A stretch of 35,281 nucleotides of DNA from an uncultured Victivallales bacterium (GTDB lineage Bacteria > Verrucomicrobiota > Lentisphaeria > Victivallales > UBA1829): contig CALXSJ010000029.1 in the NCBI GenBank assembly GCA_944391115.1, positions 1-35,281 on the forward strand, given 5' to 3'. This document shows, piece after piece, positions 2,759 to 26,333 of the stretch. Position 1 is the stretch's first letter; each line of letters starts with the position of its first letter. The notes beneath the pieces are model-generated. The model searched no databases. It saw only the letters and a program-made list of their open reading frames with translations, and was not told the DNA's origin. The position numbers and the translations under genes were made by a program.

Positions 2759-3102
2759 ATGAAATACGAGTATGACGCCGCGGGACGGCTTGTAAAAGAG
2801 GGTGACAAGGTCTATAGTTACATTGGATTGGATAAAATTGAATCCGTAACGGAAGGCGGACGAAAATTGAGTTCCTTCACCTGCCATATTGACGGCCAGT
2901 TTGCTGCGCATGTCAGCATTGAGTCCAGCGGGACATTCCGCTGGGATGGCCTTGCGTTGATCCAGCGCAACAGCTCCAGTTACGTTAACGAGCCCGCCGT
3001 GACCGGCGGCAATCCGATCCTCGCAGATGACAAAGTCCTGTTCAACGACACGCTCGGCACGACTTTAGGCGTCAAAGACGGCGACAAAGTCACGCAGAGC
3101 AG
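2759..3102 (+). repeat. 344-bp Rhs-core direct repeat, unit 2
   Basis: Partner of 1801-2144. Upstream of the ATG, and after the shared CAGAxCAG at 3095-3102, the two copies have no extended similarity, so the duplicated block has defined ends. The bases after both copies share only a loose AACAATCAC..CTCAG pattern. Confidence 0.9.
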
Positions 3103-3145
3103 TTATGTGGCTTCGAGATCAAAAGAAAACAGACAATTTGGATAA
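2759..3145 (+). pseudogene. Orphan Rhs/YD-repeat core fragment, copy 2
   Basis: A 128-codon frame nearly identical to copy 1 from its first codon (KYEYDAAGRLV) to KVTQSS, after which it diverges to SYVASRSKENRQFG and stops. It therefore lacks both the hyperconserved Rhs box and a toxin domain. A plausible Shine-Dalgarno (AAGGGTAG) precedes the ATG, only 14 bases after the preceding gene's stop, so it may be translated even though it is a fragment. The sequence in front of its ATG (AATAAACA) resembles the leader of the 2271 gene, as if the fragment had been joined behind another cassette's leader. A lipoprotein gene follows. Confidence 0.75.
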
Positions 3146-4478: not shown

Positions 4479-5198
4479 ATGAGACATATCATATATTGCC
4501 TGATTTTGCTGGCTGCAAATCTGTTGTGTTTTGACGCGATGGCAAAAGATATTTCATCACTGACAACTGAAATAAAAAGCCGGATACAGAGAGACAATCC
4601 CGATTGGAAAGCCAGCGAAGAGAGTTTTTTTTTGTCAGAAAACCAAAACGGCTTACACATTATGATTGCAGGAGCAAATATAAAAAATTTGTCTTCTCTG
4701 AAAAAATATAATTTTGATTCGGTTTGGCTTTTGGATACGGGAATCACGGATCTTGATTTTCTCATCCCATCCCAAACAAGAATTTTAGCCTTGAGGAAAA
4801 CTAAGACACAACCGGAATTCATTGATATTTCCGCTATGAAAGGAAAAAACATTGAAAGATTGGCCTTGATCAATGTAAAAGTTAAAGACTTCTCTCCTCT
4901 ATATCATAGTCCTTTCCGTTACTTGACTTTTTGTGATATCAGTAATGTAAATTTTGAAAAATTTACAAATCTTCGGCAACTGGAAGCATTGTATTTACTT
5001 GAAACACCCATTACTGATTTAAGTTTTTTGAAAAAATGCCCGAAGCTGCGCCAGGTGATTCTTGGTGATATTGAGTTGCCAGTAGAGCTTTTTCAGGAAA
5101 AAAATAAACTCCCACGGAGCACTGCACGCGCTCGTATCGGGGATTTCGCATCCGGCGACCGGCTTGTGCAGCTGGAATGCGGCGGGAAGCATTTTTGA
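4479..5198 (+). CDS. Secreted leucine-rich-repeat protein, C terminus replaced by a repeat element
   Basis: A 239-residue product is read from the ATG at 4479, preceded by GGGGGAG. The frame is open from 4431, but the signal peptide starts at MRHIIYCLILLAANLLC and ends near AMA-K. Residues about 60-200 contain degenerate leucine-rich repeats of roughly 20-23 residues (FDSVWLLDTGITDLDFL, LEALYLLETPITDLSFL). About 27 residues at the end (from RSTARARIGDF to GGKHF) are encoded by the interspersed repeat at 5118-5252, which also supplies the TGA stop. The GC content jumps at the same point. The natural 3' end was therefore probably lost by insertion or recombination. The native domain is otherwise intact and periplasmic. 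LRR proteins occur among polymorphic-toxin immunity proteins, which fits the neighbourhood but is inference. Confidence 0.75.
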   Translation: MRHIIYCLILLAANLLCFDAMAKDISSLTTEIKSRIQRDNPDWKASEESFFLSENQNGLHIMIAGANIKNLSSLKKYNFDSVWLLDTGITDLDFLIPSQTRILALRKTKTQPEFIDISAMKGKNIERLALINVKVKDFSPLYHSPFRYLTFCDISNVNFEKFTNLRQLEALYLLETPITDLSFLKKCPKLRQVILGDIELPVELFQEKNKLPRSTARARIGDFASGDRLVQLECGGKHF

Positions 5199-5252
5199 GA
5201 GCGGGAAGCATTTTTGCGATACGGAACATCGCGCGGCATTAACCGGATTTTT
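5118..5252 (+). repeat. Interspersed structured repeat, copy 1
   Basis: This matches the reverse complement of 23871-24012 through ordered blocks: GGGGATTTCGC, TCCGGCGACC, GCAGCTGGA, GAAGCA, ATTTTTG, GCGAT, CATCGCG, ATTAACC, then a T run. One stem, CCGGCT-TGTGC-AGCTGG (5158-5174), is retained with a G-T pair where copy 2 has A-T. This copy lacks the perfect eight-pair stem of copy 2 and instead carries a 16-base tandem direct repeat (GCGGGAAGCATTTTTG at 5181 and 5201). It overlaps the last codons of the leucine-rich-repeat gene. Confidence 0.8.
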
Positions 5253-5356
5253 TATGAAATTCCTATGCGGCCTGTGTCCCGTCGGGTTTGAAATGCGCAT
5301 TGCTTGAATGGAATCGGAAGGTCTGCTGTGCAAATCATTTGCGGCATGAGAGATTG

Positions 5357-23843: not shown

Positions 23844-23870
23844 GTCTGCATCCTTTCTTTTGGTTTATTC

Positions 23871-24012
23871 AAAAAAATTTAGGTTAATACCGCGATGCTC
23901 TGCATCGCCAAAAATTGCTTCGTGCAGGACTCTCAGTCCTGCCGCGGTCCAGCTGCGTAAGCTGGTCGCCGGAGGCGAAATCCCCAATACCGCGCATGCT
24001 TGCATCGCGGTA
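23871..24012 (-). repeat. Interspersed structured repeat, copy 2
   Basis: This is the better-preserved copy, in the opposite orientation to 5118-5252. Four hairpins cover almost its whole length: 23892-23908 (GCGATGC, loop TCT), 23924-23942 (GCAGGACT, loop CTC), 23949-23965 (CCAGCT, loop GCGTA) and 23988-24012 (TACCGCG plus ATGC, with one bulged base). Both ends carry ACCGCGATGC in inverted orientation, so the unit has terminal inverted repeats. It abuts the stop codon of the 24015 gene and sits inside an operon. Whether it is a REP/MITE-like mobile unit or a structured RNA cannot be decided from two copies. Confidence 0.85.
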
Positions 24013-24014
24013 AT

Positions 24015-26333
24015 TTATTTTTGAAATTCAAGAGTTCTGTAGGAATCCGCACCATGGAACACTCCGTTGCTCCAGGAGCTGATTTCCGCCGTATTGTCGG
24101 AAAGTTTGCGGGAACGGGCTATGTTGACTTTCCAGCGGTCGCCTGGTTTGGGAGCGCCGCCGAGCGCGGAGAACGGGATGGCGATGTCCGCAATCCAGGC
24201 ATCCGGGAGAATGCGCGTCCGGATCTCCGCCCCGGAGTCGAAGGCGATATCCGAATCGGTCGCATGGAGAGTCATGGCGTCGAAGAAGACGCCGTCTGCG
24301 TTGGTGACGAGATGCAGATATTTCCCGCCGAGAGCCGGTGCGGCGAGAAAGAGCTCCAGACTGTTGTCCAGCCAGATCTGGTCGTCGCGTTCCGTCTTTC
24401 TTGTGACCATGAGACGCGGGGACGGTTCTTCCGCACGGATTCTGAAATACAGTTTCCGCGGGGACCAGAGCGCCTTGACGGAGGTTTTCCGCACAGCCTT
24501 TTTCCCGAGGGACCGGAAATCCGTGACGGCGGCCGCCTTTTCCCAGTCCTTCTCTTCCGGATCCCCGGAAATTTGTCCCGCTCCGGCTCTCATGACGGCC
24601 AGTTTTTCATATTCCGCATGCCGGAGTTCCCAGCCTTCGAAGCCTTCTTTTTCCAGCCGGAGGCGCGCAAGCGTTTTTCCGTCGCCGCGCGCGGACCGGA
24701 ACGCCTGCTCCAGAAGAGTCCGGAGCTTCCTGTGCGCGTCCTTGTCCTCCAGACATCTCCCGAGCGCGATGTTCGGACTCCCGTAGAGGAAATGCGTTCC
24801 GCTGTTTTCATAGCATCTGCGCAGGAGTTTCCGGTATTCTTTCATCTGCGGCCATGCCTTTGCATAATATCTGCTTCCGACATCCTCCATGACCTCGTCG
24901 AAATCCGCATCCGCGTTCCAGAGGAAATACGCCTGAATGTAGCGCGGAATCACATCGTATTTCCAGGAGTTCCCCAGCGTCGGCAGATAGGAGCGGATGA
25001 AGAACCTTTCCGGTTCGTCCACCATCGGAGGACGTTCGTCGCAGTATCCGGCCAGACCGGAGGATTTGTAGTATTTCAGGTCTTTCACATAAATCCCTTC
25101 CAGGGGATTGTAGATTTGATTCCCCTGCGGAATGAAGAGACTGTATTCATAGGTCGTCACGGGATATCCGAGCTTTCTCCATGCGCGGATGCGCTCCCGG
25201 AAGGAGCGGTTCACGGCGCAGGATTCATCCCCGAGGGAATGGGTGTAGCAGCGCCGCACGAGACAGATTTTCAGATGGTCTAGGCGCGGGTCCGGTTTCA
25301 CGCGGTCCGGCGGATTTTCCGCATTGATGTAGGCCATGCTCTGGAATTCCATTTGCGGAATCGCCTTTTTGACTGCATCGATCACCGTGTTGGCGTAAAT
25401 CCAGAAGCGGTTCGAAACCTGCTTGTTCAGACGTTCCTCCGGCGAATCCAGTTTCCTGCAGTTTTCACACTCGCACCACTGCATGGTGTCGTTCTGGAGA
25501 ATTTCATAGCGGTTGACGCTCCGGTCCGCCGACAGTTTCCGGATGATGGTGTCGCAGATGATTTTCATGGTTTCCGGATTGGATACGCAGGGATTCGAAT
25601 AACCGGGATCGCCCGCTTTTCCGCTGGGGGGAACCCGTTTCCCGTTCACCATCGGGAAGAGTTCCGGACGGGTCTGAAAGAGTTCTTTCGGCATCAGAGT
25701 CCAGAAATCATGGCCTCCGGTCCGGCGGATCTCATTCTGAAACCATACGGCCGGCTGCATGTTGTTGCGCAGCTGCCACTGAAGCGTTTTCAGCATCTTT
25801 TCCCCGGGAGGGCCGCCGGTCAGGTTGAAGGTGCGGATCCGGAAGGAGGGATTGACGACGCGGAGCTGTGCCGGAACGCTGAAACTCCGGCGCGTTTCAT
25901 AAGATTCGCCTTCCTCTCCGGGGAAGATCCAGCGGATTCCTCCGTGTTTTTTCAGAATTTCATACGTTCCGTAGAGAACGCCGAGCGGACGGCGCGCGGC
26001 AATGTGGAGTCCCTTGTCCGTGGCGGAGATCAGGAATCCGTCATCTTTCACCTGATAAAATTTTGCCGCGAGTTCGCGCGGCAGCCGCGCGGCGGAACGT
26101 GTCAGATAGACGGGATAGCTCCCTTGCGCCGGTGTGAGGGAGACCGGCACCCGGGCTCCTGTGAGTTTTTCCAGATAGGCGGAGAGTTCCGCTGCCGCAT
26201 AGGCTTCCTGAGTTGTGAAGTCGGGCGCGATTACGATGCCGGCGCGGGGCTGCCCGTTTTCCACTAGAAAAAACTCTTTCGCGGAGAGCGTCAGCACGGC
26301 GAAGCAGCATGTCATGAAGGCCAGAAAACGCAT
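24015..26333 (-). CDS. DUF4838 protein with C-terminal CBM9-like domain
   Basis: A 772-residue exported protein (signal peptide MRFLAFMTCCFAVLTLSA; AAAGGA before the ATG). Residues about 20-140 form a small alpha/beta domain like the N-terminal domain of GH20/GH67 enzymes (TTQEAYAAAELSAYLEKLTG). Residues about 150-560 match the DUF4838 barrel, with FWTLMPKELF, the cysteine motif WCECENCRKLD, TYEYSLFIP and YFLWNADADFDEV. Residues about 590-772 resemble a CBM9-like/DOMON beta sandwich (WSPRKLYFRIRAEE, DNSLELFL, WIADIAIPFSALGG). DUF4838 proteins are thought to be glycoside hydrolase relatives, and no substrate is assigned. A paralogue lies two genes upstream. The stop codon touches the interspersed repeat. 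Confidence 0.85.
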   Translation of the reverse strand: MRFLAFMTCCFAVLTLSAKEFFLVENGQPRAGIVIAPDFTTQEAYAAAELSAYLEKLTGARVPVSLTPAQGSYPVYLTRSAARLPRELAAKFYQVKDDGFLISATDKGLHIAARRPLGVLYGTYEILKKHGGIRWIFPGEEGESYETRRSFSVPAQLRVVNPSFRIRTFNLTGGPPGEKMLKTLQWQLRNNMQPAVWFQNEIRRTGGHDFWTLMPKELFQTRPELFPMVNGKRVPPSGKAGDPGYSNPCVSNPETMKIICDTIIRKLSADRSVNRYEILQNDTMQWCECENCRKLDSPEERLNKQVSNRFWIYANTVIDAVKKAIPQMEFQSMAYINAENPPDRVKPDPRLDHLKICLVRRCYTHSLGDESCAVNRSFRERIRAWRKLGYPVTTYEYSLFIPQGNQIYNPLEGIYVKDLKYYKSSGLAGYCDERPPMVDEPERFFIRSYLPTLGNSWKYDVIPRYIQAYFLWNADADFDEVMEDVGSRYYAKAWPQMKEYRKLLRRCYENSGTHFLYGSPNIALGRCLEDKDAHRKLRTLLEQAFRSARGDGKTLARLRLEKEGFEGWELRHAEYEKLAVMRAGAGQISGDPEEKDWEKAAAVTDFRSLGKKAVRKTSVKALWSPRKLYFRIRAEEPSPRLMVTRKTERDDQIWLDNSLELFLAAPALGGKYLHLVTNADGVFFDAMTLHATDSDIAFDSGAEIRTRILPDAWIADIAIPFSALGGAPKPGDRWKVNIARSRKLSDNTAEISSWSNGVFHGADSYRTLEFQK

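Follow-up and report, generated by a model that had tools for sequence, protein, structure and literature searches.

A 150-bp hairpin repeat of an uncultured Victivallales bacterium is very probably a non-autonomous IS200/IS605-type element with guide-matched target hexamers

The window, the whole 35,281-nucleotide stretch of DNA analyzed here, comes from the genome of an uncultured Victivallales bacterium (G000) and carries a 150-bp element at 23870–24019 on the plus strand, with no gene inside it. Directly outside the element, in the host flank, stands the hexamer TTTATT (23864–23869, plus strand), which is the left cleavage or target site. Reading inward on the plus strand, the element contains a left guide, TAA (23885–23887); a left subterminal hairpin, GCGATGC-TCT-GCATCGC (23892–23908), in which 99% of cells are paired across 48 copies; three internal hairpins, namely GCAGGACT-CTC-AGTCCTGC of the cargo module (23924–23942), CCAGCT-GCGTA-AGCTGG (23949–23965), and the short TCGCCGGAGGCGA (23966–23978); a right guide, CAA (23985–23987); and a right subterminal hairpin with a bulged C, ACCGCG-(C)-ATGC-TT-GCAT-CGCGGT (23989–24011). 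The right cleavage hexamer, TTTATT (24014–24019, plus strand), forms the final six bases of the element and on the minus strand supplies the TAA stop codon (24015–24017) of a 772-aa open reading frame (ORF; 26333–24015). The folding energy lies far below that of dinucleotide shuffles on both strands (z of −6.2 and −5.4). The initial annotation had recognized a hairpin-rich repeat unit, which is real, but had placed it at 23871–24012 with four hairpins; we find five, and true ends at 23870 and 24019. The inverted arms that it described at both ends are likewise present (TACCGCGATGC/GCATCGCGGTA, 23888–23898 and 24002–24012, matching at 11/11 positions), but they lie 18 bp inside the left end and 7 bp inside the right end, are parts of the subterminal hairpins, and are not kept in diverged copies; the element has no terminal inverted repeats. 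A second, diverged copy on the minus strand was also correctly noted (covariance model, 91 bits, E of 1e-24), although with its flanking bases it extends over approximately 5100–5264 rather than 5118–5252. Elsewhere in the window, a fragment of a YD/RHS-type repeat protein (YDAAGRLVKEGDKVYSYIGLDKIESV...) occurs twice in near-identical form (1801–2232 and 2759–3145), at a distance of 0.9 kb and with a small ORF in between; the same piece is found in the flank of locus L015 and recurs in congeners.

The ends are exact. Copies at unrelated places share their sequence from the C at 23870 through the TTTATT that ends at 24019, and head-to-tail copies meet at the corresponding end points. TTNATT stands directly 5′ of nearly all copies, and the element ends in its own TTYATT; in the subfamily with a G in the guide, the left and right hexamers of one copy differ. 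We joined the flanks of G000-specific copies, matched them against the relatives, and obtained gapless or nearly gapless junction matches for L013 (in G001, G002, and G003), L005 and L008 (each in G001 and G003), and L011 (in G001). The match for L018 was less clean at the hexamer, and L012 and L017 were too diverged for judgment. Each of the clean empty sites (L005, L008, L011, and L013) has one TTNATT-type hexamer, with one deviating base in single relatives, and the element is the sole difference between empty and filled sites, with neither target duplication nor loss. Thus, the element inserts precisely on the 3′ side of the hexamer, without duplication. Since empty sites already contain the hexamer, it is the host's own and is chosen, not carried.

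The two copies of the window belong to a large family. BLAST gave 54 matches to the element in G000, 19 of them 98 to 100% identical over ~150 bp, and 49, 44, and three matches in the congeners G001, G003, and G002. A covariance model of 48 copies gave 149 matches in G000 at E<0.01, of which ~43 were full-length with >130 bits; these 149 are not a copy number, the weaker ones including other hairpin repeats with the central module alone, and copy numbers for G000 are taken from the sequence-search matches. Near-identical copies occupy unrelated places, and the presence of the element differs between close relatives. The site in the window is likewise filled in G001, where a further tandem copy is present. 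BLASTN and covariance-model searches, which the initial annotation had proposed, have yielded many further copies in G000 and in its congeners, so that the refuting case it had named, two copies only and no covariation, does not apply. It was right that the unit is dispersed and non-autonomous and too short, at 150 bp, to encode a transposase, and of its two readings the mobile element is the one supported. Larger intergenic repeats that consist of nearly nothing but short hairpins occur at L031, L036, L041, L042, L044, and L045 (contigs C1, C2, C4, and C5 of G000); they match the element only in its central module (element positions ~46–115), and in L044 and L045 their units lie ~410 bp apart.

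Strong covariation links guides to hexamers. Each guide is a short motif a few bases 5′ of an end hairpin, and its variable base (23886 on the left, 23986 on the right) covaries with that of a hexamer, such that the left guide pairs with the host's TTNATT and the right guide with the element's terminal TTYATT. On the left, the guide:hexamer pairs were A:T in 33 copies, G:C in 13, C:G in 15, G:T in eight, and others in 11 (11/80 thus being exceptions to the pairing), and one pair tallied as G:A comes from L009, whose hexamer is really TTGATT; on the right, they were A:T in 36, G:C in 31, G:T in 18, and others in two. Watson–Crick pairs accounted for 61/81 on the left (29.9 expected from target shuffles) and 67/87 on the right (41.4 expected). 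These totals were reached in 0 of 20,000 target shuffles, a count that is not a probability, the copies sharing ancestry. We then restricted the comparison to near-isogenic copies in G000 (95–100% identical to the window copy, tandem copies excluded): guide A stood at TTTATT in 8/8 and guide G at TTCATT in 9/11 (p of 1e-4), the two exceptions among the latter being one TTTATT and one TTGATT. A change of one guide base appears to have moved the favored target away from TTTATT, to TTCATT or TTGATT. Guide-directed target choice by IS200/IS605 elements has so far been known from structures and from engineered changes in a few model elements; here, a natural experiment offers near-identical copies in one genome that differ in one guide base and whose targets differ accordingly, together with the empty sites of relatives. 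The position of the left guide is numerically like that in IS608 (+16/+17), but we dropped this likeness as evidence; in the tnpA-bearing copy of G016, the guide lies ~5 nt nearer the end.

Transposase genes between matching ends are found in relatives. G016 has two ~540-bp elements with an intact 146-aa TnpA, one of which reads TTTATT-C..GGGTTTAATACC-hairpin at its left end and CTCCGATACC-hairpin-GGTAGTTCATT at its right, the same arrangement as in the window copy. The right-end anatomy follows tnpA pieces in G024, G029, G040, and G050 (with G016, all have GATACC-hairpin-GGTAGTTCATT) and, more diverged, in G126; G032, which belongs to a different genus, has a broken tnpA with GATACTGGGCATGCTTGCATCGCGGTAGTTCATT behind it, in essence the right end of the element. 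Copies of tnpA with matching ends reach other genera and families of the order, and in these tnpA-bearing copies, too, each guide fits its hexamer, a left A standing with TTTATT and a right G with TTCATT. The matching-end TnpA is recognized by the NCBIfam IS200/IS605 transposase model (4.5e-35, 120.6 bits), by Pfam Y1_Tnp, and by similarity to solved Y1 transposases, the nearest of which include the 2xm3 group (ISDra2 TnpA). Of the two signs of mobility that the initial annotation had looked to, flanking target duplications and an associated transposase, the former is absent, and the related transposase, with matching ends in relatives, is of the single-strand Y1 (IS200/IS605) type.

In the draft assemblies of G000, G001, and G003, the element-richest genomes, we found no intact Y1 gene and no relatives of the matching-end tnpA clade, and G002, which has few elements, has only a broken copy of that clade. 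This decayed gene (L211, G002:C4:48773–49111), in the same genus as the window, lies just downstream of the apparent 3′ end of a tRNA gene. G000 itself yielded a single Y1 gene, a broken one of IS200 type (L087, G000:C35:25416–25862), which sits after a tRNA-like stretch; being broken and without the element's ends, it was rejected as the element's own-genome transposase. Because the element is non-autonomous, a TnpA in its own genome is not required. The element-rich genomes may lack tnpA because they lost it once the element had spread, because another mobile element supplies it, or because the draft assemblies are incomplete, and the element was probably mobilized in trans by this tnpA or one like it.

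We conclude with high confidence that the repeat is a non-autonomous, palindrome-associated transposable element (PATE) of the IS200/IS605 type. It is too short for a transposase, has IS605-like near-terminal palindromes, and lacks both target duplications and terminal inverted repeats, as PATEs do; and it inserts 3′ of a fixed motif that is kept in the left flank, shows guide pairing, and has a matching-end Y1/HUH TnpA in relatives, as expected of IS200/IS605. Exact ends, a pre-existing target that is not duplicated, covariation of guide and hexamer at two ends, and the same anatomy around an intact tnpA of a relative are direct observations. For the protein chemistry and the single-stranded intermediate, we infer the following. 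The ends would serve as sites for a Y1/HUH TnpA, each combining a subterminal hairpin with a guide immediately 5′ to it and a cleavage hexamer. TnpA from elsewhere would act in trans, binding the hairpins on the single-stranded plus strand and cleaving where the guides pair with the hexamers, and the element would be released as a single-stranded circle. Insertion of the circle would follow at a fresh TTNATT, on its 3′ side, with N paired to the left guide.

Two predictions of such a route concern the strand that folds. A folded plus strand would tolerate G·T mismatches but not A·C. We counted 14 G·T and one A·C on the plus strand of the left hairpin; in the right hairpin, the asymmetry was weak (13 G·T and nine A·C), and in two internal hairpins, it was reversed. 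Insertion into the lagging-strand template is described for IS608 and ISDra2 (PMC6006769), and such use predicts that the plus strand of the element is the G-rich strand relative to its surroundings. By GC skew in the draft assemblies, this was so for 19/22 copies in G000, 8/9 in G003, and 7/13 in G001; pooled, the 34/44 exceed the 54% of control hexamers (p of 0.002), but unevenly, G001 being without bias. The excess of G·T over A·C in the left hairpin and the G-rich orientation in two of three genomes lend the predictions partial support. Compensatory change within the stems is weak (six double-change pairs versus 3.1 in shuffles), and the strong covariation is that of guide bases with cleavage and target hexamers, not of stems. 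The initial annotation was right to suspect selection on structure, here that of a folded strand. The GCAGGACT/AGTCCTGC stem (columns 64–82 of alignment A1) is lost in ~40% of copies, across genomes, with a left arm of TCTCCT or TTTCCT type, and its presence or replacement looks as if recombination had switched the module.

The hexamers also bear on neighboring genes. On the opposite strand, TTYATT reads AATRAA, which contains a TAA or TGA stop codon, and TTCATT also holds an ATG start. At 21/57 non-tandem insertions, an opposite-strand ORF of at least 80 codons has its end at the TTYATT stop, as the 772-aa ORF does at the window copy; for TTYATT sites in general within these regions, the share is 17% (p of 5e-4). 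Start codons at TTCATT showed no excess (5/12 versus 36%). Since selection would remove intragenic insertions, the excess at ORF ends need not reflect targeting; insertion nevertheless rebuilds the stop, the target motif being present again at the right end. It is conceivable, though we consider it rather doubtful, that the ends have been shaped for harmless insertion and not just for recognition, with natural retargeting having evolved by single guide-base switches (the TTTATT, TTCATT, and TTGATT subfamilies). If so, an element that ends in its own target motif would, when inserted at gene ends, rebuild the stop and keep the start. These ORF ends, together with the strong folding, could alternatively suggest a dispersed structured RNA or a 3′-end regulatory element that is kept for host function and whose mobility is incidental, the former having been an alternative in the initial annotation. 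We regard this as very unlikely: an Rfam scan of the window returned tRNA only, with no match at the element, a terminator and promoter scan found no such site there, the internal stems show little compensatory change and one of them is frequently lost, and the presence of the element varies among close relatives.

Another alternative is a repeat of the REP/BIME type, for which a domesticated TnpA-REP (RAYT) would take the place of an IS200/IS605 TnpA. REPs, too, come as many palindromic, intergenic copies, at times in tandem, and depend on a Y1-type enzyme (PMC8266576); their guide likewise lies 5′ of the hairpin (PMC8266576, PMC6006769), and a RAYT-like gene is present in G016 (L152). However, REPs are 20 to 50 nt long, have a GTAG-type tetranucleotide as guide, and rely on a domesticated single-copy gene, whereas the element has 150 bp, two different ends, and no GTAG; the matching tnpA scores 120.6 bits with the IS200/IS605 model as against 26.7 bits with the REP-associated model (cut-off 80); and searches of G000, G001, and G003 turned up no RAYT. 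We accordingly give this explanation very little weight. A classical MITE with terminal inverted repeats and a DDE transposase, which the 11-bp inverted arms near both ends might evoke, has next to no probability, given that the arms sit subterminally and disappear in diverged copies, that filled and empty sites lack a target-site duplication (the empty-site structure by itself contradicts a MITE), that guide-G copies have unequal left and right hexamers, and that guides pair with targets across the family.

As a non-autonomous IS200/IS605-type element, the repeat follows the recognition logic of IS608 and ISDra2 (PMC5934647, PMC6006769). Like IS608 (PMC5934647) and ISDra2, it inserts 3′ of a short left-flank motif and has subterminal hairpins with guides 5′ of them that pair with the cleavage sites, and the ISDra2 target, TTGAT (PMC5934647), is close to the TTNAT of the element. 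Unlike either, it carries neither tnpA nor tnpB, and it targets TTNATT, in which N switches naturally. The PATEs of Haloquadratum walsbyi are short, lack a transposase and a target duplication, and have near-terminal palindromes like those of an IS605-type transposon; some form homogeneous high-copy families, and despite recent insertions, only broken transposases were found (PMC3119063). The element repeats this puzzle in bacteria, with recently spread, transposase-free copies and no matching intact transposase found in the host genome, but it differs from those PATEs in the domain of its host, in its unrelated sequence, in covariation that is resolved per copy, and in interior hairpin modules that are common to other repeats. 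The kind of element is known; the family, its host group, the hairpin cargo, and natural guide switching are new. In the library searched, no paper on the element turned up, nor anything of relevance on Victivallis repeats or Lentisphaerae palindromic repeats, although this is no proof of absence.

Two sites are filled in both G000 and G001 (L001/L065 and L083/L093). At L001/L065, the copies are nearer to young copies of their own genome than to their counterpart (0.996 versus 0.980), and at L083/L093, own-genome young copies are again nearer (0.987–0.989 versus 0.980), a resemblance that hints at gene conversion or replacement.
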